This document shows, one piece after another, positions 3,094 through 17,453 of a stretch of DNA of 41,893 nucleotides. The DNA lies in IMG/VR virus record IMGVR_UViG_3300027806_000011, positions 1-41,893 of that record; one strand, written 5' to 3'. The position numbers and the translations under genes were made by a program. Under the pieces are notes generated by a model. The model was given only the letters and a program-made list of their open reading frames with translations, made no database searches and was not told the origin of the DNA. The DNA comes from a virus. Within the stretch, counting starts at the first letter, position 1, and each line of letters begins with the position of its first letter.

Positions 3094-3465
3094 ATGAAAC
3101 TCAAGGCACTCAACGACAACTCAATAGATATCAACGGAACCTCATTACAAGGCTACATCACGATGACCCGACGCTCACTCAACAAGGCGTTCGGTATCGT
3201 CGAGCGCAATGAGTACGCCGACAAGGTCCAGTATCAATGGCTACTTCAGTTCGAAGTATCAGGACATCCCGATGTCATCGCAGACATCTACGATTACAAG
3301 GAGTACCAAGACATTGACCTCGATGCTGTGCATCGATGGCACATCGGTGGCAACTCACCACTGGCTGTTGCCTGTGTCTACGCAGCACTCAACAATCGTG
3401 GCGCACTGACCATAGTGCCAGACGATTTCATCTCATACGACAAGGTATTTGTTACAAACAAATAA
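3094..3465 (+). CDS. Hypothetical protein, 123 aa
   Basis: Starts at ATG 3094 with AAAGGAG upstream; the longer frame from 3055 would begin inside the hairpin element. The protein starts MKLKALNDNSIDINGTSLQG and alternates short strands and helices; it is acidic in the middle (ADIYDYKEYQDIDLDAVHRW). No family recognised. It opens the second segment of the early operon after hairpin element 3 and is followed, 14 bases later, by the GP88 gene, with which it is probably co-translated. Confidence 0.8.
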   Translation: MKLKALNDNSIDINGTSLQGYITMTRRSLNKAFGIVERNEYADKVQYQWLLQFEVSGHPDVIADIYDYKEYQDIDLDAVHRWHIGGNSPLAVACVYAALNNRGALTIVPDDFISYDKVFVTNK

Positions 3466-3479
3466 CGAAAGGAGAAGCA

Positions 3480-4187
3480 ATGCCCAAACTCAAACGGTCT
3501 AATGACCGCAAGGTAACCAACATGGCAACACCGAATGGCAAGCGGTCAGCGCTAGCCAATACGTTCGGTCTGCCTAGTGGTAAGCAGTACTCATGTCCCT
3601 ACGCAACCAGCATCTGCGAGAAGATTTGCTACGCAGGTAAACTGGAAAAGATGTACACCTCGGTTCGTGAAGTGTTACTTCACAACTGGAATGCGTTACG
3701 CAACGCCGACAAGTACGACATGTGGGCAATGCTTGACACCATGATTCTCGATTTCAAATCAGACTGTGACACCAAAGGTGTCAAGAAATTGTTCCGCATC
3801 CACTGGGATGGTGACTTCTTCAATGCCGATTACATCTGGGCGTGGAAGGTAGTCATCGAGAACAACACCGACACTCAGTTCTGGGTGTACACACGCAACC
3901 CTGACGCAGCTCGTGCGTTACGTGACATTCCCAATCTCTCGCTGTATTACTCTGCAGATGCAGAGAACTGGGAATTTGCACCGCAAGGTGTGAAGATTGC
4001 ATACCTTGGTGACACCTTCGGTGCTGCCAAGCAAGCAATGCTAGCCATGACAGGCAAGCCAGGTGCTTCCTGTCCCGAACAACTCAAGCGCATCCCACTC
4101 ATCTCCGAAAAGGGTGGAGCCTGTGCGGTATGCCGTCTATGTATAGACGGTAAGTCCGACATCCGATTCAGTATCAGCAAACGATAG
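3480..4187 (+). CDS. GP88-like phage protein, 235 aa
   Basis: ATG 3480 with AAAGGAG upstream. The protein shows the pattern of the mycobacteriophage gene-product-88 family: a Ser/Asn-rich start, FGLPSG, then CPYATSICEKICYAG with four clustered cysteines near residues 38-51, a conserved helix with Asn (HNWNALRNADKY), FRIHWDGDFFNADYIWAW, a strand with YTRNP, and a final cysteine cluster (CAVCRLC). The cysteines could hold iron-sulfur or zinc. The family's biochemical role is unknown to me. It is common in phages of Actinobacteria, which fits the WhiB gene elsewhere in this genome. Hairpins at 3667-3683, 3767-3783, 3950-3965 and 4133-4150 lie within it. Confidence 0.75.
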   Translation: MPKLKRSNDRKVTNMATPNGKRSALANTFGLPSGKQYSCPYATSICEKICYAGKLEKMYTSVREVLLHNWNALRNADKYDMWAMLDTMILDFKSDCDTKGVKKLFRIHWDGDFFNADYIWAWKVVIENNTDTQFWVYTRNPDAARALRDIPNLSLYYSADAENWEFAPQGVKIAYLGDTFGAAKQAMLAMTGKPGASCPEQLKRIPLISEKGGACAVCRLCIDGKSDIRFSISKR

Positions 4188-5026: not shown

Positions 5027-5275
5027 ATGACAACCGACACAATCAAGTCAACACCCAAGCGAGGTGACCGTTGCGCCAATGGTGCAACCATCCTCGATAT
5101 CAAGAAAACTACAGGCGATGGATGGATAGTCCTCTGCCTCTTCCCCGAATCCCAGTACCACCCATTCGTAACATGGTGGGCGTTCTGGTCTGAAACAGGC
5201 GAGCTCCGCACACTAATGGGTCATTACCATGACCAACTTTCCCAGGCAGTTGTTGACTTCGACAACCGCATATGA
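5027..5275 (+). CDS. Hypothetical protein, 82 aa
   Basis: ATG 5027 with AAAGGAAG upstream and an 11-base gap from the previous gene. Strand-rich: a basic GDRCANGATILDIKKTTGDG hairpin-like start, then WIVLCLFPESQYHPFVTWWA, resembling small beta-barrel proteins, and a short C-terminal helix. No family recognised. A hairpin with one G-U pair lies at 5070-5088. Confidence 0.75.
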   Translation: MTTDTIKSTPKRGDRCANGATILDIKKTTGDGWIVLCLFPESQYHPFVTWWAFWSETGELRTLMGHYHDQLSQAVVDFDNRI

Positions 5276-5315
5276 GATACTCTCTCCCAACCAACCAACT
5301 AACGAAAGGAAACAC

Positions 5316-6284
5316 ATGACAACAACACGCAGAATGTCAGCAAGTATTGCTGGCTCAGCAGTAACCGCAACATCCGCACAAGACGCAGCACAACAGGCTG
5401 GTCTTGACTGGCACGTATCGCTGGCTGACCTTGAAGCCCTAGCAGTAAACGATGAGGGTGTCAGCAGACTCCAAGTACCAAGCACATTCGCAACTGTACG
5501 TACCGACAAGGACGGCGGGCAGTCAGTGCTTGGCACTGTAGGTACACGATACCAAGTGTTTCAGAATGGAGATATGTTCTCTGCTCTAGATGCACTGGTT
5601 GATTCAGGTGAAGCACGATATGCAAACGCAGGTGAGCTGCGTGGTGGTGCTCAAGTCTGGATGCTTCTTGAACTTCCAAAGGAAGTCAAGATTGCAGGTG
5701 ACCCACATGCTGCTTACTTACTAGCACGAACCTCACACGATGGTTCATGCTCACTCGGTGTCACGCCAGTTGTGAACCGACTCTTCTGCTCCAACCAAAT
5801 CAGTGGCATCTTCCGTAAGGAATGTAAGTATTCCTTGCACCACACAACCAATGCCAAACTGCAGGTAGAGCAGATGCGTAAGATGCTTGACGTTATCTAC
5901 ACAGGTATCGAAACATATGAGATTGTCGCAGACAAGTTACTCAATGTATCGGTATCAGATACACAGGTGGAAGACATCTTCAAGAAGATGTGGACCATGC
6001 CAGCACTGGTCGAGAAGACACCGTACTTCAAACTCAGCACTGGTGAACGACGTACATACAACCGTATCACTGACGCTCGTAACACAGCGCTCAATATCTA
6101 CCAGCACAGCAGCACACAAGAGAACATCAAAGGTACTGCGTTCGGTGCGTTCCAAGCAATCGTCGAGTACCTTGACTGGAACTCACACAAGTCGGAGGCT
6201 ACTCGTGCAGAACGTGTAATCGCTGGCAAGTATGACCGACTCAAGAGCAAAGCTCTTGACCTAGTAACACAGGAGGTAGCGTGA
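5316..6284 (+). CDS. DUF932 / TIGR03299-type phage-plasmid protein, 322 aa
   Basis: Starts at ATG 5316 after AAAGGAA. The sequence matches the known pattern of the DUF932 family, often called phage/plasmid-like protein TIGR03299: an N-terminal region, VRTDKDGGQSVLGTVGTRYQ near residues 70-90, FSALDALVDSGEARYANAGE, GGAQVWMLLELP, then VVNRLFCSNQISGIFRK and a helical C-terminus. Members are frequent in phages and plasmids; their function is not established, though replication or recombination roles have been suggested. It is the longest early gene. It overlaps the next gene by four bases (GTGA) and carries an 8-bp hairpin with AAA loop at 6241-6259 close to its 3' end. Confidence 0.8.
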   Translation: MTTTRRMSASIAGSAVTATSAQDAAQQAGLDWHVSLADLEALAVNDEGVSRLQVPSTFATVRTDKDGGQSVLGTVGTRYQVFQNGDMFSALDALVDSGEARYANAGELRGGAQVWMLLELPKEVKIAGDPHAAYLLARTSHDGSCSLGVTPVVNRLFCSNQISGIFRKECKYSLHHTTNAKLQVEQMRKMLDVIYTGIETYEIVADKLLNVSVSDTQVEDIFKKMWTMPALVEKTPYFKLSTGERRTYNRITDARNTALNIYQHSSTQENIKGTAFGAFQAIVEYLDWNSHKSEATRAERVIAGKYDRLKSKALDLVTQEVA

Positions 6285-7194: not shown

Positions 7195-7337
7195 TGTGGA
7201 CGATTGTATACATTGCCATCGCTGCGTATGTCGCTTATCGTATAGGCAAACGCAAGGGTGAGCAGGAGATGTATCAGTTATGTAAGAACGCTGACCAAGT
7301 TCAGCGTGAGTTCTTCTCACGCATCAGCTTGAACTAG
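7194..7337 (+). CDS. Small single-pass membrane protein, 47 aa, last early gene
   Basis: ATG 7194 overlaps the previous stop by one base and follows TTGGAGG. Residues 3-17 (TIVYIAIAAYVAYRI) form a short membrane segment followed by a basic cluster (GKRKG) and a polar tail. No family recognised. It overlaps the end of the convergent glycosyltransferase gene by 14 bases and is followed at once by the operon terminator. Confidence 0.68.
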   Translation: MWTIVYIAIAAYVAYRIGKRKGEQEMYQLCKNADQVQREFFSRISLN

Positions 7338-8139
7338 AACCATCCGAAGGGGCGGGGGCTTGTGCCTCCGCCTCTTTTTCTTTACGCGCCTGAGCCTGCA
7401 TACTGTTTAGCATCGTAGCCCAATACAATTTATAGAACTCTTCATCGAATGCGAATCTCTTCATATGCTTTACTGTTGCACCAGTATGTGCATGAAGTGG
7501 AATGCCAGCCTCTTTCATCTTCATAAAGAACTGGATGTCCTCACCAATGAACGTATCCTTATCAGCATTAGCCTCGTCCATCGACTCAATAAAGAATGAG
7601 ATGTCACCATGGAACTCACGCATCTTGTCAGCCACTGACCTATGCATCAGAAGGAATCCAAACCCAGCGTAATCAACCTTCAACAACTGGTTGAATGGCA
7701 GAGGGTGGACGTATGACATCAGGTACTTGTCATCCTCATGCGCCATGAATACTGCAGGATATGGCTGCATGATTGAACTCTCCATCTGTTTGGAGATGAA
7801 GTAAGTTCCGCTAACAACAGGTCGCTCAACCTTGTGAGCAGACTTCCATACCAACTGCAAAGCTTCGTTCGTAAGAACGATATCGCTATCGACCCAGAGT
7901 AACCAATCAAAGTTAGTCTGCTTATGCCAGACATCGAATGCAGTCTGACGTTGTCTACCTATCTGATTACCTTGCACACGTTGTGCGCTAGTAATAGGTA
8001 GCCCAGCAGTTAACAGCGTGTACACCACGCCTTCCATAAACTTGCCATCGACTGTTCCATTGTCACACCAACAGACCATTATCTGGTCATTAGGTTCGCT
8101 GGTAACAGCTCGCTTTGCAGGGTTGCCTGACTTACCCAT
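7324..8139 (-). CDS. Glycosyltransferase, GT-A fold, 271 aa
   Basis: I chose ATG 8139 because GGGGAGG lies eight bases upstream; the frame extends further to 8196. A GT-A type enzyme: after a strand (MVCWCDNGTV) and helix come RQRQTAFDVW and the metal-binding DSD at residues 84-86 (LLWVDSDIVL). A later block (FIGEDIQFFMKMKEAGIPLH) has the Glu-Asp expected near the acceptor site, and HTGATVKHM a final metal His. It would transfer a sugar from an activated nucleotide sugar; phage targets can be DNA bases, virion proteins or host surface glycans, and the sequence does not say which. The C-terminus is a low-complexity Ala/Glu/Ser tail that also encodes the opposing operon's terminator. Confidence 0.75.
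   Translation of the reverse strand: MGKSGNPAKRAVTSEPNDQIMVCWCDNGTVDGKFMEGVVYTLLTAGLPITSAQRVQGNQIGRQRQTAFDVWHKQTNFDWLLWVDSDIVLTNEALQLVWKSAHKVERPVVSGTYFISKQMESSIMQPYPAVFMAHEDDKYLMSYVHPLPFNQLLKVDYAGFGFLLMHRSVADKMREFHGDISFFIESMDEANADKDTFIGEDIQFFMKMKEAGIPLHAHTGATVKHMKRFAFDEEFYKLYWATMLNSMQAQARKEKEAEAQAPAPSDGSSSS
7349..7383 (+). terminator. Rho-independent terminator of the rightward early operon
   Basis: An 11-bp stem with two G-U pairs (GGGGCGGGGGC at 7349-7359 with GCCTCCGCCTC at 7364-7374), loop TTGT, then a T-rich tract (TTTTTCTTT). It ends rightward transcription only; the minus strand lacks a T tract. It lies inside the 3' coding end of the convergent glycosyltransferase gene. Confidence 0.85.
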
Positions 8140-8302
8140 TGTGATTTCCTCCCCATCCAGTTCCCTTGAACTGTATACCTGGCGCTGTCCACACACGTGT
8201 CATGGTTCGATGACACTGGTCGCAGTCAGGACCAACTTCGAAATGTATATTGAATTCTTTCTTAAACGAACATTCTCTACATTCGTATTCGTATGTAGGC
8301 AT
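8132..8302 (-). CDS. FmdB-like zinc-ribbon protein, 56 aa
   Basis: Begins MPTYEYECRECSFKKEFNIH, the standard start of the FmdB-family putative regulators: MPxYEYxCxxC, then a second CxxC (C27, C30), and a C-terminal IQFKGTGWGG that matches the family's usual IxFKGSGF. The four cysteines should hold one zinc. In this family the protein is small and of unproven function. The start overlaps the stop of the sigma-like gene (TAATG), and the end overlaps the glycosyltransferase start, so all three are probably co-translated. Confidence 0.85.
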   Translation of the reverse strand: MPTYEYECRECSFKKEFNIHFEVGPDCDQCHRTMTRVWTAPGIQFKGTGWGGNHNG

Positions 8303-8940
8303 TAGTATGGTGTTGCCCCTCCGAGATACTCAGTTATATCTCTTAGTCCCTTGTTGATAATCTGCTCCACTCTTTGTGGAGAGATGTCCCATTCTTTTGC
8401 AATCTCAGCAAGAGGCGCATCAGTTGAGTATTTAGTTTTTAATATCTGATGTGTTCGTAAGTCTAGCTTCTTCATTGCTCTGTCTACATCAGCTAACATA
8501 GCCAAAAGATTATTACCTTCGTTCGGTTGCTTCTTTGCTTTAACGCCATGGATATCTGGGTCCATCACTTGGTTAGTTAAGTGAGCATCATCAGAACCAA
8601 TAACCTTAATAAGAGTTTCAATCATAGCCAAGCGGTAGAAGTATTCATCACCTAACTCATAACCAAGCGCACGAGCTTTCTCTTTGCGAGCGTATCGCTC
8701 GCCTGCTCTGCGTATGAATGTGCTGAATGCTTTGTATCCTTGCTTGCGTTCTATCTCATCCTCACGCATTAGGTATTCGGATACTTTATCTTTACGCTTC
8801 CATGCATATTCATTCATAGCCTGCTTAACATCTTCAAGCTCAACAAACCTGTGATATCTTTTTGCTATACCCCAAGCAATGGTGCTTGTTATGTCATTGA
8901 TTGCAGACCAAATCTCATGGTCTTTATCTAGGTCAGTCAA
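8302..8940 (-). CDS. Sigma-factor-like transcription protein, 212 aa
   Basis: The C-terminal 50 residues (LDLRTHQILKTKYSTDAPLA, then EIAKEWDISPQRVEQIINKG) match region 4 of sigma-70 factors: a helix-turn-helix that binds the -35 box. The N-terminal half is helical and basic, with no clear regions 2.3-2.4 for -10 recognition. It could be a divergent phage sigma factor for late genes, or a region-4-only regulator. It is in the replication operon, so it would be made before late genes, and terL has no obvious host-type promoter. Alternative: a generic HTH DNA-binding protein. Confidence 0.6.
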   Translation of the reverse strand: MTDLDKDHEIWSAINDITSTIAWGIAKRYHRFVELEDVKQAMNEYAWKRKDKVSEYLMREDEIERKQGYKAFSTFIRRAGERYARKEKARALGYELGDEYFYRLAMIETLIKVIGSDDAHLTNQVMDPDIHGVKAKKQPNEGNNLLAMLADVDRAMKKLDLRTHQILKTKYSTDAPLAEIAKEWDISPQRVEQIINKGLRDITEYLGGATPY

Positions 8941-9539: not shown

Positions 9540-10179
9540 CCAGTGCGTTAATCAACTTAGTTAACGCTTGAGCTCCTTGGCTGACAATTATACTATTAAC
9601 GTCACTATCAGGCGGTAGCGACACGCGGATGGCTTGAGGTATTGCATCAGATAAACGGCGGGCTAGTTCTTGTCCTGGGTTGGAACCATCCTCTTTGGCA
9701 TCATTATCGGTGGCTATAACAACGCGCCCAATGCCGTCAAAACAACGGCTAAAGTGAGGCTTCCAAGCATTAACGCCAGCCACAGCGACAGCAGGATGAC
9801 CAGCAAGGGTAGCAGATATCGCATCAATCTCTCCTTCTACAATCAATACTTCATGGACAGCATGAAGGATAGCACTGACATTATATAGGTGGTGCTTCTG
9901 ACCAGTAGGAATCATATACTTTGGGTCGCCGTCATCTATACGGCGGAACTTAAATCCAACCACACCTGACTCTGTTATGTATGGGATAGATAGATGATGC
10001 TTCAACCTATCCTCATGACCAGGTGCAGGGTCAACCACATACCCAAGCTTGAATCGTTCGGCTCCATCAAGGATGCCACGCTTCTCAAGGTATGCCTCGG
10101 CTGGTGAACCAGCAAGGTTGGCATGATATGTGTTGGCTGCTTTAGTCCAAAGGTCTATGAGCTTTTGATTTGGTTTCAC
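9532..10179 (-). CDS. DNA primase catalytic part, TOPRIM domain, 215 aa
   Basis: GTG start at 10179 behind AGGAG. Residues 10-100 match the TOPRIM-N segment of DnaG primases (AYLEKRGILDGAERFKLGYV, LSIPYITESGVVGFKFRRID, KYMIP). Residues 111-170 are the TOPRIM fold: VLIVEGEIDAIS with catalytic Glu115, and VVIATDNDAKEDG with Asp158 and Asp160 for metal. It lacks the N-terminal zinc finger of a full primase; that is encoded separately at 10706-11035. It would make RNA primers for host or helicase-recruited polymerase. The proteasome-like gene sits between the two halves, with four-base overlaps on each side. Confidence 0.85.
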   Translation of the reverse strand: MKPNQKLIDLWTKAANTYHANLAGSPAEAYLEKRGILDGAERFKLGYVVDPAPGHEDRLKHHLSIPYITESGVVGFKFRRIDDGDPKYMIPTGQKHHLYNVSAILHAVHEVLIVEGEIDAISATLAGHPAVAVAGVNAWKPHFSRCFDGIGRVVIATDNDAKEDGSNPGQELARRLSDAIPQAIRVSLPPDSDVNSIIVSQGAQALTKLINALDE

Positions 10180-10709
10180 TTCTTCTCCTGCCTATGCACT
10201 ACGAAAGGAGGAGCAGTATACACATCATTCTTCGCTGCAATCTGCAGCGCTTTCTTCCAGTTAGCACCAGATGCGAGAGCACCTATGGCATAGGAAGACC
10301 CAGAACCTAAGCCATAGATGCCATCGTCGCGTAGGAAGACTGAGTACGTATCATCTACTTCATAGATGGTTCCATTCACAGCCATTAAGAAAAGGAATTC
10401 ATATTCATCTGTCTTCTCATCATGAATGAATCCGTTATCACGTAAGCATTCACGCATATTAGGAATGACGGTTGTAATCATAAAATGATATATGTCTTTT
10501 GTGTTAGCTGGTATGGCTGGTGGTTTCCATATGTGTTGGACTATGTCACATGGTTGAGTTGTGCCAGCACCAGCGATTAGAAACTTACCGCGCTTAGTAA
10601 TCTTAGTTACGATTGGATGTGAGTAAGGGCGACCCTTCTCAGTTGTAGTTCTACTATCGGCTGCAATCAAGCAGCCGTCTGGTTCTTGAATACCAATGAT
10701 TGTTGTCAT
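10176..10709 (-). CDS. Proteasome/HslV-like Ntn peptidase, 177 aa
   Basis: Starts MTTIIGIQEPDGCLIAADSR. Removing Met exposes Thr as N-terminal nucleophile, with Asp18 (Asp17 when Thr is residue 1) and Lys36 placed as in HslV and proteasome beta subunits. Near residue 140 GLGSGSSYAIGALASG matches the family's conserved Gly-Ser-Gly and following helix. These enzymes form ring chambers and degrade unfolded proteins with an ATPase partner; no such ATPase gene is seen here, so it may act alone or use a host AAA partner. The gene is wedged between the two primase parts with ATGA and GTGA overlaps. It has its own GAGGT ribosome site. Confidence 0.8.
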   Translation of the reverse strand: MTTIIGIQEPDGCLIAADSRTTTEKGRPYSHPIVTKITKRGKFLIAGAGTTQPCDIVQHIWKPPAIPANTKDIYHFMITTVIPNMRECLRDNGFIHDEKTDEYEFLFLMAVNGTIYEVDDTYSVFLRDDGIYGLGSGSSYAIGALASGANWKKALQIAAKNDVYTAPPFVVHRQEKK

Positions 10710-11951: not shown

Positions 11952-12214
11952 ACATAATCCTTTACTAGTATCTCTTGAATAATTATATTCCTACTGCGCC
12001 TAATCTTCTTGCGCTCCATTGGGGTTGTCCCGCCCCACATGCCATAAGCCTCATGTCTTATAGCCCATTCCAGACATTCATTCTTAACCACGCACTTGCC
12101 ACATATCTTGCGTGAGTATGTATATATATCAGTACCACTTCCTCCTTCTTCTGGAAAGAAGAACTCAATACCAATCTCTCTACACAACCCCCTGGTCAAG
12201 TCTGGAAATTTCAT
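11948..12214 (-). CDS. WhiB-family iron-sulfur transcription regulator, 88 aa
   Basis: Has the WhiB signature: Cys11, then CGKC (C38, C41), Cys47 in KNECLEWAI, and the tight turn GMWGGTTPMERKKIRR after it, which in the family contacts DNA or the sigma factor. The four cysteines hold a 4Fe-4S cluster that senses redox or nitric oxide. WhiB proteins are restricted to Actinobacteria and their phages, so this is the best host clue here. Phage copies can modify host transcription. ATG 12214 is chosen for AAGGGA seven bases upstream; GTG 12220 is possible. Confidence 0.93.
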   Translation of the reverse strand: MKFPDLTRGLCREIGIEFFFPEEGGSGTDIYTYSRKICGKCVVKNECLEWAIRHEAYGMWGGTTPMERKKIRRSRNIIIQEILVKDYV

Positions 12215-12608
12215 CTGCACTTCCCTTTCGTAGTAACTTCATTGCGGACAATAAGTTTTCTATAGTAACCAAGTAACCTTTACTTCGGTTCGGGGGAATC
12301 TCACAAGTAATCTCGTGACCCCAGTTCTTGACTACATATCTTACGTAATCTGTCGGAACCATAATCACGCCTTCTTCTAAGACGAATGCCCAGTAATCAG
12401 CTTGCGTTACTGATAAACCAGATGGTTCCCAAGATTGGGATTTAAGATACCAGCACTCAACCTCAATGTAAACATTGTTTGTCTTGTGCCACTTGCGGTC
12501 ACGCTTTACTTCAACAGTTTTACCATTGGTCAGAAGTTGTTCAACTAGTTTCTCACCTTCACGACCATATGAGAAATCTAAATCGAAACTTGATTTAGTT
12601 ACTTCCAT
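12180..12608 (-). CDS. Probable PD-(D/E)XK-type endonuclease or DNA-binding protein, 142 aa
   Basis: The N-terminal part (SYGREGEKLVEQLL, then TVEVKRDRKWHKTNNVYIEV with Glu33-x-Lys35 and further Glu) looks like a restriction-endonuclease fold: helix, strand, ExK. The middle (LSVTQADYWAFVLEEGVIMV) fits the following helix and strand. I cannot confirm the first catalytic acid, so activity is uncertain. It overlaps WhiB by 35 bases and the upstream ATPase by ten. Other possibility: a small nuclease-related protein without activity. Confidence 0.55.
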   Translation of the reverse strand: MEVTKSSFDLDFSYGREGEKLVEQLLTNGKTVEVKRDRKWHKTNNVYIEVECWYLKSQSWEPSGLSVTQADYWAFVLEEGVIMVPTDYVRYVVKNWGHEITCEIPPNRSKGYLVTIENLLSAMKLLRKGSADEISRLDQGVV

Positions 12609-13432
12609 TGGCTCATCGTCCTTGCTCTAAACAATTCTGTCGATGAGTTATACAGAGTCATCTTGCTAGCTTCTGCTGCCAGTGTTATGTACTCTTCAGC
12701 ATTCGGGTCAGCTTTACCGTGACGATTCTTCACGACAGCCACACGATAAACATTAGATGCGCTATCCAGCGCCACGGATAAGACGAGTTCTGGTAGGGCT
12801 GCAACCTTGCCCATCAGAGCCTTACGTGGCGCTGGGTAGTTTGGCTTAGACATCTTCTCGTTCTCCGACACATGGTGAAGAACGATGAAGGCAGTTTCAT
12901 ATTCACGAGCCATATAGTGGAACGCTGACATTGCATCACGCAATGCAGTCCACTCATTGTCGCTTGATGAAGCGACGTTCATTAAGTTATCAACATACAC
13001 CGCCACAGGTGCAGCACCGTGCAGTTCAATCCACGCTTCGATTTCTTCCTCGATGTCTTGTAACGAGGGCGCTGGGTCGAAGGCAAACCGAACATGTCCT
13101 GCACCTTCAGCCAATGCATCTTCAAGAAGAACACTGGCTTCAGTATCCATGATTCTCTCAACGTCAGACACTTCTCTGTCCATAATGATTGCGCCTGCAC
13201 GAGTCGCTATTGTTCTTGAATCAGAGTCCGCTGAGATATATAACGCTGGAACTTTGGAGGCGATGGCGTACCACAATGCAATCAGTGTCTTACCGCCACC
13301 TGGCTGTCCTGCAATCAAATGCAGTTGAGCCTGACGGAAGGCAACTTGACTTGCGGTAAGAGCAGGGAGCACCTCTGGTAATTGCTTACCAGCAGGTGAC
13401 TCCACACCGACTACTTGTAGTAGTGAACGCAT
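12599..13432 (-). CDS. DnaB/RecA-like replicative helicase ATPase, 277 aa
   Basis: Walker A GQPGGGKT at residues 42-49, Walker B-type strand VAVYVDNLMNV at 143-152, and a sensor-like LHHVSENEK stretch. Order and spacing match the RecA-type core of DnaB and related phage helicases (also RepA). There is no N-terminal primase-binding domain, so it is a core-only helicase of about 277 residues. It would unwind DNA for replication, probably with the split primase (9532-11035) and host polymerase; no phage DNA polymerase gene is present. The C-terminal part (VYRVAVVKNRHGKADP) fits the family's final strands. Confidence 0.78.
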   Translation of the reverse strand: MRSLLQVVGVESPAGKQLPEVLPALTASQVAFRQAQLHLIAGQPGGGKTLIALWYAIASKVPALYISADSDSRTIATRAGAIIMDREVSDVERIMDTEASVLLEDALAEGAGHVRFAFDPAPSLQDIEEEIEAWIELHGAAPVAVYVDNLMNVASSSDNEWTALRDAMSAFHYMAREYETAFIVLHHVSENEKMSKPNYPAPRKALMGKVAALPELVLSVALDSASNVYRVAVVKNRHGKADPNAEEYITLAAEASKMTLYNSSTELFRARTMSQWK

Positions 13433-13434
13433 TG

Positions 13435-13899
13435 TTAGCCTTTAGTCCAGATTGTTTCTGCTTCAGCAACACCTGGCTTAAATGGCTTTGGTCCCTTGGC
13501 TGGGTCAAACCAACCAACGTAAGCCTTACCAGCTTTGGATACGCCCTTCTTCTTGGCGTACTTGCCACGTCCATCTGGTAGGTCTGGGGCATCTGGGTGT
13601 CCGTATGTCCACTCATTGCCGTACTTGTCTTTGACTACCTCAATTGATTGAGGTGATGATGACACTGGCTGAGGATTCATGCCAGCATCTTGGAGTGCTT
13701 GAATAGCTTGCTCCATGTTAGGTGCGTATGCATTACCTGTTGGTCGATTAACCAACACGGCTTGCAGGCTTTGTGCTTCATTGATTGCCTCAATAGCTGC
13801 ATTCAAATTAGCTTTGAATTCGGCAACACTCATACCTCGGACGGTAAATAAGTCCTGCCCATTCAACTTGCCAGTATATGAAAACGTAGATTCAGTCAT
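13435..13899 (-). CDS. Hypothetical protein between helicase and nuclease, 154 aa
   Basis: ATG 13899 directly follows the stop of the nuclease half upstream. The N-terminal 40 residues (FSYTGKLNGQDLFTVRGMSV) resemble an oligonucleotide-binding beta start followed by a helix; the middle is Gln/Ala-rich; the C-terminus has aromatic, Gly and Lys residues (YGNEWTYGHPDAPDLPDGRG, KYAKKKGVSKAGKAYVGWFD). Position between helicase and Fe-S nuclease suggests a recombination or single-strand-binding accessory protein, but this is inference and I do not recognise the family. Confidence 0.7.
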   Translation of the reverse strand: MTESTFSYTGKLNGQDLFTVRGMSVAEFKANLNAAIEAINEAQSLQAVLVNRPTGNAYAPNMEQAIQALQDAGMNPQPVSSSPQSIEVVKDKYGNEWTYGHPDAPDLPDGRGKYAKKKGVSKAGKAYVGWFDPAKGPKPFKPGVAEAETIWTKG

Positions 13900-14568
13900 C
13901 TACTTTTTCCTTTCCTTCCCCTTTGTTGTAGGTATTTGCAGAGGGAAATCTTTTGAGCCCATTGCTGGACACTTCTCTTGGAATGAACACATCTTACAGT
14001 TTTCTCCAACCGATGGTGGGAACCAACCTTTAGACACGGAGTCATTCATTGCACCAAATACATAATCAAAGTAATCAATACTCAAATGCGATAAGTCAAA
14101 CAGGTCATCGAGCTGACCTTGTCTTGTCATAAAGAATGCACCGAACTTTGGGCGAATGCCATATATCTTTTCAATACCGCTGGCATACAAGCCAGCTTGA
14201 ATCATACCGAACGGTGTCCTAGCACCAGTCTTGAAGTCGACTATTACTAAGTCTTCCCCCACTTGGTAAATGACATCAATGACAAAGCGTACAGGTGTGC
14301 CTCCGAAATGCACACTTGCATCCCATTCGATGCCAGGACGACCGTCGGGCAGGGTGGCGATTTTCCACCCAGACTGAGCATACCACTTCTGGTAAGCCTC
14401 AACCTGTTTGAGTCCATCACTCTGCCAGAACGCTAGGTCTTCCCCATCTGGGCGAGCTGCGGTCTTACGACCTGCAGTCTTCCAATCAGAACTAGGAACA
14501 CCTGTTTGTTCTTCGGTAACTCTAACAGATTCATTAAATACTTCAAGCCATTTTTCAGTTAAACTCAT
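13900..14568 (-). CDS. Cas4/RecB-type Fe-S nuclease, C-terminal part, 222 aa
   Basis: I use the third of three ATGs (14568) since GAAGG sits six bases before it. Contains the nuclease core: FVIDVIYQVGEDLVIVDFKT with Asp98 and Asp111-x-Lys113, the metal-binding PD-(D/E)XK signature, a following motif (GMIQAGLYASGI) with Gln, and a C-terminal cysteine cluster CKMCSFQEKC (C191, C194, C200). In the Cas4/AddB group these three cysteines bind a 4Fe-4S cluster with a fourth Cys near the N-terminus, which here is missing from this chain and present in the ORF at 14751-14951 (Cys21). It overlaps the zinc-ribbon ORF by 14 bases. Role: 5'-3' exonuclease in recombination. Confidence 0.85.
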   Translation of the reverse strand: MSLTEKWLEVFNESVRVTEEQTGVPSSDWKTAGRKTAARPDGEDLAFWQSDGLKQVEAYQKWYAQSGWKIATLPDGRPGIEWDASVHFGGTPVRFVIDVIYQVGEDLVIVDFKTGARTPFGMIQAGLYASGIEKIYGIRPKFGAFFMTRQGQLDDLFDLSHLSIDYFDYVFGAMNDSVSKGWFPPSVGENCKMCSFQEKCPAMGSKDFPLQIPTTKGKERKK

Positions 14569-14785
14569 CATCATCCTTCGGAGTGTAGTCTGGGTTATCT
14601 ATGGGGGTAGGGGTAGTCATCGGCGACCCACAGGTCGCACAGAAGGAATCAGTAAACCACATAACAAGCTCATAGTCTTGGAAGATGGCACGGATAATCT
14701 GGATGTTGGAGCCACAGTTGATACACTCATTGCTAGGTATCCCCCGCTGGTCAATTAGATTCTTGTTGGGTTCTGTAGAACTCAT
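14555..14785 (-). CDS. Zinc-ribbon protein lying between the two nuclease parts, 76 aa
   Basis: Two CxxC pairs, ECINCGS (C21, C24) and FCATCGS (C49, C52), give a zinc ribbon with a hydrophobic core between (IQIIRAIFQDYELVMWFTDS). The tail is Pro/Asp-rich. No family recognised. It overlaps the nuclease N-part by 35 bases and the C-part by 14. It might be an inserted gene or a third subunit helping the two parts assemble. Confidence 0.7.
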   Translation of the reverse strand: MSSTEPNKNLIDQRGIPSNECINCGSNIQIIRAIFQDYELVMWFTDSFCATCGSPMTTPTPIDNPDYTPKDDDEFN

Positions 14786-14951
14786 GGTTCAACCATTCCA
14801 GCATCGAGTGGACTGCTGAGCCAGCAGCCAAATAAACAGCTGGTTTCTCTGGGACCATTGCGACTTTGCTGAGGTAGTATTTCTGCGGGCAGGATTGCCA
14901 AGTAGAAAGCTGACTATAGGAACGATGTGGGGGCAGTTGATTCATATGCAT
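14751..14951 (-). CDS. Cas4/RecB-type Fe-S nuclease, N-terminal part, 66 aa
   Basis: ATG 14951 behind GGAG at eight bases; the upstream in-frame extension to 15140 lacks such a site. The short chain has the exact start of RecB/Cas4-type nucleases: SYSQLSTWQSCPQKYYLSKV (with Cys21), VPEKPAVYLAAGSAVHSMLE. In intact enzymes this is the N-terminal helix-Cys-helix and the GSAVH motif. The frame ends at 14751 and the catalytic part follows 180 bases on in a separate ORF. First gene of the leftward replication operon. Confidence 0.85.
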   Translation of the reverse strand: MHMNQLPPHRSYSQLSTWQSCPQKYYLSKVAMVPEKPAVYLAAGSAVHSMLEWLNHEFYRTQQESN

Positions 14952-15272
14952 AGTGTATTCTCCAAGTCGGACAAATCGGGTCCGACACGCCGTTTGTTTT
15001 TTAACCAAGTTCGTGATAAGTTTGAGGGGTGGAGGGCGGGAAAGGCTCGCCTCAGGGCGAGCCGTGAAAAGAATAAGACATGGGATGAATTCTATCCAAG
15101 GTTCAATGAACTCCACGGACACTACATAGCAAGGTTCCACAAGAAGATTGACTACGCAAAGATGGACCCCAACTCCAGAGCTTGTCTACCAGACAAGCGA
15201 TACTGGGAGGGATGGAATGCAGGATTAGATTGGGCTCATCGAATAGTTGATGGGGATAAATCAGCAGATTAA
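14946..15272 (+). CDS. Rightward ORF between the two leftward operons, up to 108 aa
   Basis: The only rightward gene candidate among leftward ones. The frame from ATG 14946 overlaps the start of the nuclease N-part, so the true start may lie further in; no ribosome site settles it. The second half reads like a real protein (KTWDEFYPRFNELHGHYIAR, RYWEGWNAGLDWAHRIVDGD), basic then acidic, helical. A strong 8-bp hairpin (15043-15062) lies within it. No family recognised. It ends at the late-operon terminator. Confidence 0.5.
   Translation: MHSVFSKSDKSGPTRRLFFNQVRDKFEGWRAGKARLRASREKNKTWDEFYPRFNELHGHYIARFHKKIDYAKMDPNSRACLPDKRYWEGWNAGLDWAHRIVDGDKSAD
14966..14986 (-). promoter_or_regulatory. Inverted repeat upstream of the replication operon
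   Basis: Perfect 7-bp inverted repeat GTCGGAC/GTCCGAC with a 7-base spacer, 15 bases before the first start codon (14951). It fits an operator or a 5'-leader hairpin. I see no strong -35/-10 pair nearby. Confidence 0.45.
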
Positions 15273-15307
15273 AAACAAAAAGAAGGGGGAACCGTTTGGT
15301 TCCCCCT
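15270..15307 (-). terminator. Terminator of the leftward late operon
   Basis: A 10-bp stem (AGGGGGAACC at 15284-15293 with GGTTCCCCCT at 15298-15307), loop of four. On the minus strand it is followed by CTTCTTTTTGTTTTT, ending the late operon. The plus strand has only ATCTCTTT after the stem, so it may weakly stop the rightward ORF too. Confidence 0.85.
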
Positions 15308-15321
15308 ATCTCTTTGGCTCC

Positions 15322-15540
15322 CTACCATTCAGGCGGAGCAACTGCGAGCGCATCCAGCGTGGCTAAGTTGATGCACCCGACTGCTGGAATGGAAAGCGTA
15401 TGCTGCAAACCCTTAAGCACTTCAGCCAGGGGAGCATCTAGCACATCATCTCCAGCTATATTCAGCGCCACTCGAACTTTCTCTACTAGTTCGTGACGCT
15501 CACCTGGTGATACCAGGGATATTAGTCTGTTCTGTTCCAC
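15322..15540 (-). CDS. Hypothetical protein, 72 aa, last late gene
   Basis: Helical start (ERHELVEKVRVALNIAGDDV), then EVLKGLQHTLSIPAVGCINL and ATLDAL, which loosely resembles a peptidoglycan-binding repeat (LQ...G...T..AL). The match is too short to be sure. It overlaps the stop of the tail protein upstream by one base. Confidence 0.7.
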   Translation of the reverse strand: MEQNRLISLVSPGERHELVEKVRVALNIAGDDVLDAPLAEVLKGLQHTLSIPAVGCINLATLDALAVAPPEW

Positions 15541-17453
15541 TATGTAATTGGAACTTCTGTATCAATAGTCTGTAGTTGAACCGTAACTATTCCACCAAAT
15601 CCCGACGCAAAAGAGGGAGGTGAAGTTTGCTCGAACTGTAAAGCGCGGATAGTACAGAGTCTTTCTTCTCCTGAAGAAAAGTCCTGGAAGAGTACCGCGC
15701 CTCCATTTTGTTCAATACGTTCCAAATAGTTAATGCGTTCCCATGGGTTGGATACTCTTGTGACTCCATTTGAATCGCGCTCCTCTTCGAAACATAGTAA
15801 CGGAACTGTAATTGTACGAGAACGAAGTGGTGCTGGTAGCGCACGACACTGCCATTCTTCTACCATCGGACCAACTGTTGCATCACTTGTACTTCTAGTT
15901 AAAGTCAGTTGAATCTCGAAGTGGTCAGCTGGTTGAAGACCAGCAGATAACTGGAATTCTGTTGAGCCATTAAGCGGGATAGCATCAATCAATGTTGAGT
16001 TGAGCTCTTGGTCGTAAACAGAAAAACCTACTCGACCACCACCCTCGCAACGTACTGCAATAGATACTGGTTGTTTATTTTCTGCAGTACCCCAACGAAT
16101 CCATCCTGATTTAATAACTCCAGAGGTGGCAAGGTTTGTTGCATGCTCGGTCCATATTCCAGACGCACCAACCATAAACTTCCTGGCTGATACCCCTAGA
16201 AAACAAACACCAATAACATTAGACGAATCTGTTTCTAAGTCTGAAGCATAGGCATAGCCATTATCTATAGGTTGACCAAGGTCAATCTTCCATAGACCTT
16301 TTTTGTTATTAATGGCAAGCGACCTGGTTGCATATACAAACCTTCCTGTAAATGCAATGTCTTGTACATCTCCAGTAATGTTTAATGGTCCGTATGTAAA
16401 CGAAGCTCCATCTGTCGATTGGTTTCCTATGCGTACACCAGCTGTTGTAGCCATAACAACAAATTCGTTTAGGTATGTACGAATCTGATGTATCGTTTCA
16501 CCTCGTGGTAATTCAGCAATAACAATAGGGTCATTGATTGCAGCCAATGGAGATGTATCATTTATAGTAAATGACAATACTCGTGAAATTGCACCAAGTG
16601 TATAGCCAACTATAATTGCACTATTGAGTTCGCCAACAGTATTCCATACCAGAGCTGGGTCTTTGTACGTATAACGCTCTTCAGTATTACCGATAGTTGA
16701 TGGTGCTGAAGAGGGGAATCTTGATATTTCATACACCACACACTGGGTGTTGTTTTCTAATACACCAATAACTATTCTGTCTTTAACAAAACCAATAGCT
16801 TGAACGGTCCAAGTGGTAGCAGTATTTGGTTTGTTCCAAATTTTGGTTACAACCATTGATGTGCTTACTGTATAAATTGCATCCGTTCCGCCAACAATTG
16901 CGTTGTTACCATCACTTGTTAAAACATGTGCTGTTACAGATGTTGCTAACGATGTTGATGTCGCAGTATTAGTGCTAGCGTTATAGTAATAAACATTACC
17001 ACCTTGAATATAAAAAGCTCCATCAGTTACTGTAGCTGGCTTAGCTGTGATAGCTGTTGTAGAAAACTGGGTAGTTGCTGGAAGTAAAGAAATAGAGCCA
17101 GTATCACTAAACACATCTATGTTGTTTGATTCATAGAATCTATAAAGGTCTGATGCGTCAGCGTCATAGTAACGCTCTCCAGCACCATGATGCCAGGATG
17201 TTGCAGACCTAAGCCACCAGTTAGACAAGGAGTTTTCACCAGCAGTCGAGCCTTGGTCAATACGTTCTTTCTGGTATGTCGTAGTGATACGACTAATGCG
17301 GTTCTGGTCAGATGCAGCAGAAAGCCAAGGAGTACTACCAATTGCATAACTAGCAGCAAAGTCTTCTCGCTGGTATTTAACCAGCGCTGTAGGAATAGAC
17401 TGGCTAAGAATTACAGGTAAATCACCAACAAGTTTTTTGTTGTCTGTTGCCAC
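15540..17453 (-). CDS. Large beta-rich tail protein, 637 aa
   Basis: Almost wholly beta-strand, with repeated short blocks of the type seen in beta-propellers (GSISLLPATTQFSTT, AFYIQGGNVYYYNAS, RIVIGVLENNTQCVVYE, FVVMATTAGVRIG, RFVYATRSLAI). The size, late position and lack of tail-tube genes suggest a podoviral tail hub or nozzle similar in role to T7 gp12, or a receptor-contacting tail protein. No catalytic motif seen. The N-terminus (KKLVGDLPVILSQSIPTALV) is a plausible anchor. Sure of structural role, not of the family. Confidence 0.72.
   Translation of the reverse strand: MATDNKKLVGDLPVILSQSIPTALVKYQREDFAASYAIGSTPWLSAASDQNRISRITTTYQKERIDQGSTAGENSLSNWWLRSATSWHHGAGERYYDADASDLYRFYESNNIDVFSDTGSISLLPATTQFSTTAITAKPATVTDGAFYIQGGNVYYYNASTNTATSTSLATSVTAHVLTSDGNNAIVGGTDAIYTVSTSMVVTKIWNKPNTATTWTVQAIGFVKDRIVIGVLENNTQCVVYEISRFPSSAPSTIGNTEERYTYKDPALVWNTVGELNSAIIVGYTLGAISRVLSFTINDTSPLAAINDPIVIAELPRGETIHQIRTYLNEFVVMATTAGVRIGNQSTDGASFTYGPLNITGDVQDIAFTGRFVYATRSLAINNKKGLWKIDLGQPIDNGYAYASDLETDSSNVIGVCFLGVSARKFMVGASGIWTEHATNLATSGVIKSGWIRWGTAENKQPVSIAVRCEGGGRVGFSVYDQELNSTLIDAIPLNGSTEFQLSAGLQPADHFEIQLTLTRSTSDATVGPMVEEWQCRALPAPLRSRTITVPLLCFEEERDSNGVTRVSNPWERINYLERIEQNGGAVLFQDFSSGEERLCTIRALQFEQTSPPSFASGFGGIVTVQLQTIDTEVPIT

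Follow-up and report, generated by a model that had tools for sequence, protein, structure and literature searches.

Conserved division of a predicted Cas4-like phage exonuclease between two genes

Cas4-like nucleases of the pfam12705 family are known from phages of Mycobacterium and Propionibacterium (PMC5704561). The actinophage exonucleases of this family, which include the mycobacteriophage gp76-type proteins, gp36 of Cutibacterium phage P106A (PHROG 1870) and a RecB-like protein of Rhodococcus phage RER2, are each a single polypeptide encoded a few genes upstream of a DnaB-like helicase. Four cysteines, one of them N-terminal and the other three C-terminal, hold the single cluster of solved Cas4 proteins; its loss inactivates SSO0001 but leaves Pcal_0546 active (PMC4176176). 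These two CRISPR-associated proteins (4ic1, 4r5q) and ACE1 (9iab) are also single chains. A viral Cas4-family gene in two parts has been described in the archaeal virus TTV1, where the first part (TP1) carries the first cysteine and the second (gp7) carries the other three; the N-terminal part of this split Cas4 became a nucleocapsid protein and the nuclease function was lost (PMC4625639). Division of such a gene is therefore no guarantee of an active heterodimer.

Here we describe a locus in which an exonuclease of this family is divided between two genes. The DNA analysed, hereafter the window, is a viral sequence of 41,893 nucleotides (IMG/VR record IMGVR_UViG_3300027806_000011, positions 1 to 41,893) with a WhiB-like gene that marks it as an actinophage. 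Re-reading of the sequence placed three ORFs on the minus strand at the positions given for them in the preliminary description (Table 1). They follow one another in the order N, Z, C with successive overlaps, that between Z and C being 14-20 nt, and lie in three different frames. C has additional in-frame ATGs at 14571 and 14574 and comprises 224 aa if counted from ATG 14574. The best explanation, which we hold with considerable confidence, is a conserved two-gene split of a pfam12705 Cas4-like RecB-fold phage exonuclease whose chains would reassemble into one nuclease. The sequence shows the single-chain gene divided at one site, in the loop after the motif-I helix, giving an N fragment of ~60 aa and a C fragment of ~200-222 aa; the former keeps the motif-I histidine and the first Fe-S cysteine, the latter motifs II and III, QxxxY and cysteines 2-4. 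The preliminary description had assigned the catalytic core and three of the Fe-S cysteines to C. The cysteines are indeed there, but the motif-I histidine (His48), which it omitted, sits on N, and the catalytic residues are therefore divided between the chains, as are the Fe-S ligands.

Table 1 Features of the window (residues of C are numbered from ATG 14574)
Feature	Position	Strand	Details
GP88 family protein (PF17338)	3336-4184	plus	forward-strand gene block
DUF932 protein (PF06067)	5229-6281	plus	forward-strand gene block
Glycosyltransferase-like protein	7327-8196	minus	match below cut-off
Sigma-70 region 4 protein	8305-8940	minus	adjoins glycosyltransferase-like gene
Weak proteasome subunit family match	10179-10709	minus	PF00227 18.1 bits, under cut-off 22.4
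WhiB-like gene	12005-12196	minus	PF02467 E 2.2e-16, 56.1 bits, cut-off 23.6
DnaB-like replicative helicase	12599-13432	minus	phrog_243 E 5.7e-74; two genes downstream of C
154-aa gene between C and DnaB-like helicase	13438-13899	minus	without Pfam or PHROG match
C, C fragment of nuclease	13900-14568	minus	222 aa from ATG 14568; VDFKTG, IQAGLY, CKMCSFQEKC
C motif residues			Asp100 (motif II); Asp113/Lys115 (motif III); Gln126/Tyr130
C Cys193 codon	13996-13998	minus	
C Cys196 codon	13987-13989	minus	
C Cys202 codon	13969-13971	minus	
Shine-Dalgarno-like AAGGA	14574-14578	minus	5 nt upstream of C start ATG 14568
Z, zinc-ribbon-like ORF	14555-14785	minus	76 aa from ATG 14785; ECINCG...CATCGS
N/Z overlap	14751-14785	minus	35 nt
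N stop codon	14751-14753	minus	coincides with Z residues 11-12
N, N fragment of nuclease	14751-14951	minus	66 aa from ATG 14951; contains SYSQLSTWQSCPQKYY and GSAVH
N motif-I His48 codon (in GSAVH)	14808-14810	minus	
N Cys21 codon	14889-14891	minus	first Fe-S ligand by homology

The nuclease of the window belongs to the same family as the single-chain actinophage exonucleases, shares their motifs and four cysteines at about 25-33% identity and likewise lies upstream of a DnaB-like helicase, but what is one polypeptide there is here two with a zinc-ribbon gene between them. With SSO0001, Pcal_0546 and ACE1 it shares a RecB-like fold and structural matches, and with the first two the pattern of one N-terminal and three C-terminal cysteines (PMC4176176). 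Unlike these single chains it is in two parts, and the match of C to PF01930 (CRISPR Cas4) stays under the cut-off (15.8 bits against 22.7). It probably acts in the manner of a Cas4-type nuclease, although made of two chains. A search of the open-access literature, whose coverage is incomplete, returned no description of such a split in phages. The split described below is conserved in two phage clades, cultured phages among them, with catalytic motifs and Fe-S ligands intact; this appears to be new, as does the zinc-ribbon gene at the junction in one of the clades.

As the preliminary description had suggested, N and C tile the single-chain phage Cas4/RecB-like exonucleases. Both match PF12705 above its cut-off of 22 bits (N 31.2, C 26.1), on separate parts of the profile, and both match PHROG 1870, where they occupy adjacent and non-overlapping stretches (positions ~11-68 and ~73-299). 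In Mycobacterium phage PurpleHaze the tblastn matches of N and C lie 3 bases apart within one gene, gp76, which is annotated as a Cas4 exonuclease. Hand comparison suggests that the MSL opening C has its counterpart in an M[ST]L within the single chains. No matches to PF12705 or PHROG 1870 other than N and C were found in the window and six relatives, and the single polypeptide usual for pfam12705 nucleases is absent from every member of the two clades described below, which have separate ORFs in different frames. Among the isolates tested, P106A is the closest family member by profile score, with 649 bits for P106A itself, about 205 for C of the window and about 100 for the mycobacteriophages. 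P106A gp36 (758-1702 of locus L165) also has an extra cysteine pair, CKNMC, downstream of the place where the window is split.

To follow the locus in related phages we scanned IMG/VR, each scan listing the best 80 matches, and reduced 245 pooled loci (many contigs having been fetched repeatedly) to 86 distinct N-Z-C regions. Among the matches listed in scans with C and Z, N-Z-C was the only order seen, bar contigs cut at the edge, and an unsorted scan for the N motif, written as a degenerate DNA pattern, gave, among the matches listed, only split loci and none that were fused. Single-chain forms linking the split clades to the undivided proteins were not found among the best 80 matches per scan, and a bacterial genome collection yielded no relatives. 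The frame offsets were constant, with N to Z and Z to C both +1 in 86/86 regions, all of which also kept Cys21 and GSAVH in N, the three cysteines of C and those of Z, the last in the pattern ECxxCG...CxxCG. Motifs II, III and QxxxY of C were jointly present in 84 of the 86, with one exception each for motif III and QxxxY. Across these regions pN/pS was 0.038 for N, the lowest of the three ORFs, 0.109 for Z and 0.188 for C, compared with 1.6-5.4 when N or Z was read in other frames, which places each of the three under strong purifying selection. One 82,688-base record, IMGVR_UViG_3300027754_000069 (L144 and L372), holds two N-Z-C loci that differ from each other and are separated by about 42 kb; it probably arose when related phage genomes of ~41 kb, two in number, were joined during assembly.

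The phages nearest to the window by terminase and capsid (about 48% identity) are OX376640 and OX376641, the Planktophila phages LanE43AprE7 and F5, whose isolation host was a freshwater strain of Ca. Nanopelagicales (PMC10202952). Here too the nuclease is in two parts, the N stop TAA overlapping the ATG of C with nothing in between, and the two genomes differ here by substitutions, with no indel at the N/C junction. A scan seeded with these phages gave, among the matches listed, a split in 79/79 contigs with a readable N. The 65 distinct regions of this second clade are all split at the same site as the window clade and all lack an insert, C starting 8 nt (36 regions), 11 nt (22) or 14 nt (7) within the end of N. 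All 65 keep GxAFH, which includes the motif-I histidine, along with DxKT and all four cysteines; pN/pS values are 0.113 (N) and 0.199 (C). Related phages thus keep the same split with and without the insert and, taken with the tiling, this conserved layout supports the earlier proposal of one nuclease split into two genes, in the window around a zinc-ribbon ORF. In a phylogenetic tree one change between single and split forms suffices (branch support 84/82, or 92/83 after removal of three long rows), and a single fission event is favoured on these sequences; AU tests did not reject other groupings (p 0.117 and 0.223), and fission may instead have occurred twice, independently, at this site.

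Z itself gave only sub-threshold Pfam and PHROG matches to known zinc-ribbon families and no convincing relative in a search of solved structures. Seven of nine second-clade genomes searched have a weak relative as a free-standing gene (E between about 1e-5 and 1e-7 in each genome); in L443, one of these, it is on the other strand, some 5 kb away from the nuclease. None was found in four single-chain phages tested. Since the second clade is split in 65/65 regions with no Z at the junction, the split does not need Z, which weakens the earlier suggestion of the zinc-ribbon protein as a possible assembly factor, at least as one that the divided enzyme requires. Fission would have come first, and Z is probably a later insertion, in the window clade, of a free-standing phage gene at a pre-existing gene boundary. 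A self-splicing intron was rejected, as positions 13500-15600 have no Rfam match and what is inserted is a conserved ORF in its own right. Z and C resemble each other around their starts, 12 of 15 bases being shared between 14771-14785 (ATGAGTTCTACAGAA) and 14554-14568 (ATGAGTTTAACTGAA) of the window; a simple target-site duplication was rejected because excision between the two would not restore the frame.

An AlphaFold run on the single-chain relative SWU2, with an alignment of 28 rows, gave a model with a pLDDT of 85.9. In this model the split site maps to the loop 57-62, which joins helices 39-56 and 63-83, with N corresponding to the first three helices. Its best matches among solved structures were the Argonaute-associated Cas4-family protein ACE1 (9iab), AdnA, Dna2 and SSO0001. 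Modelled alone, C of the window had a confident core and a pLDDT <50 over residues 185-224, the region that holds its three cysteines; the predicted disorder of this tail fits a missing partner, a shallower alignment being the other possible cause. By analogy with the solved Cas4 proteins it is plausible that Cys21 joins the cysteines of the C fragment in trans. We propose that N and C would be made separately and then reassemble non-covalently into one nuclease fold, in which residues from both chains would hold the active-site metal and an Fe-S cluster would staple N, through its one cysteine, to C, through its three. Placed beside the DnaB-like helicase, the enzyme may process DNA ends in phage replication or recombination. 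More tentatively, the product could be a stable two-chain RecB/Cas4-fold nuclease with a 1+3 division of the staple ligands, in which loading of the cluster could act as an on/off switch for the heterodimer and the zinc-ribbon protein would be a third subunit in one clade.

We think it unlikely that the fragments have parted ways, with N, C or both in new separate roles and no nuclease formed. The TTV1 pair TP1/gp7 is a precedent, being a split Cas4 with the first cysteine on one part and three on the other (PMC4625639). However, that split falls later, within QhxxY, which is broken, and the motif III glutamate has been lost, whereas the split here lies between motif I and the core and leaves the motifs whole. 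The motif-I histidine and four cysteines persist in 86/86 regions, motifs II, III and QxxxY together in 84/86, and GxAFH, DxKT and the four cysteines throughout the second clade; N, moreover, has changed least among the three ORFs (pN/pS 0.038).

The start regions bear on whether the parts that would make up the reassembled nuclease are translated separately. C has an in-frame ATG 6 or 15 nt upstream of its conserved core in 86/86 regions, and its start is preceded by a Shine-Dalgarno match (4 nt or longer) in 92% of them compared with 20% of control positions; we infer that C is initiated independently. Against the proposed reading, the signal of N itself is weak (17%, no better than the 20% of the control), and two regions lack ATG or GTG at the usual start of Z. 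This start is ATG in 77 regions, GTG in 7 and ACG in 2, thus ATG or GTG in 84/86, and the N codon lying over it is CAT (77), CGT (7) or CAC (2), while only 59% of histidine codons in C are CAT. Initiation of Z is less certain than that of C. A single N-C or N-Z-C chain could also arise by recoding, through +1 frameshifts at both junctions or by ribosomes bypassing Z, and the constant offsets (+1 at both junctions in 86/86, and +1 from N to C in 65/65 of the second clade) would suit this, as the window can be read as one chain of 348 aa by two +1 steps. We nevertheless regard recoding as very unlikely. By eye, the variable sequence at the N stop (TGA in 79, TAA in 6 and TAG in 1 of the 86 regions) shows no constant slippery codon. 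C has retained an ATG and a Shine-Dalgarno match of its own, and overlapping ORFs would pass on their frame offsets in any case. In the second clade the C start overlaps the N stop, and a conserved co-located stop and start has been taken as a signature of translational coupling (PMC3711429).

The suggestion, raised in the preliminary description, of a degenerate gene broken by an insertion, or else of an assembly or sequencing error, would account for reading in three frames with an unrelated ORF mid-way, but has a negligible probability, since decay, chance and assembly error are excluded by the layout and frames shared by 86 regions with low pN/pS, and a further 65 regions carry the same split, starts and catalytic residues are conserved, and two independently isolated phage genomes have no junction indels.

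If the fragments do reassemble, phages of freshwater actinobacteria and their relatives carry a natural split nuclease with a metal site and an Fe-S staple divided over two chains. The role of the staple in Cas4-like enzymes, for which SSO0001 and Pcal_0546 differ (PMC4176176), could then be tested by adding or withholding the 66-residue chain, and as cultured phages E7 and F5 carry the split it can be examined in real infections. Short N fragments resemble unrelated small ORFs, a warning for annotation. The Planktophila phages E7 and F5 have, like the window, also been described with sigma-70-type and glycosyltransferase-type genes.
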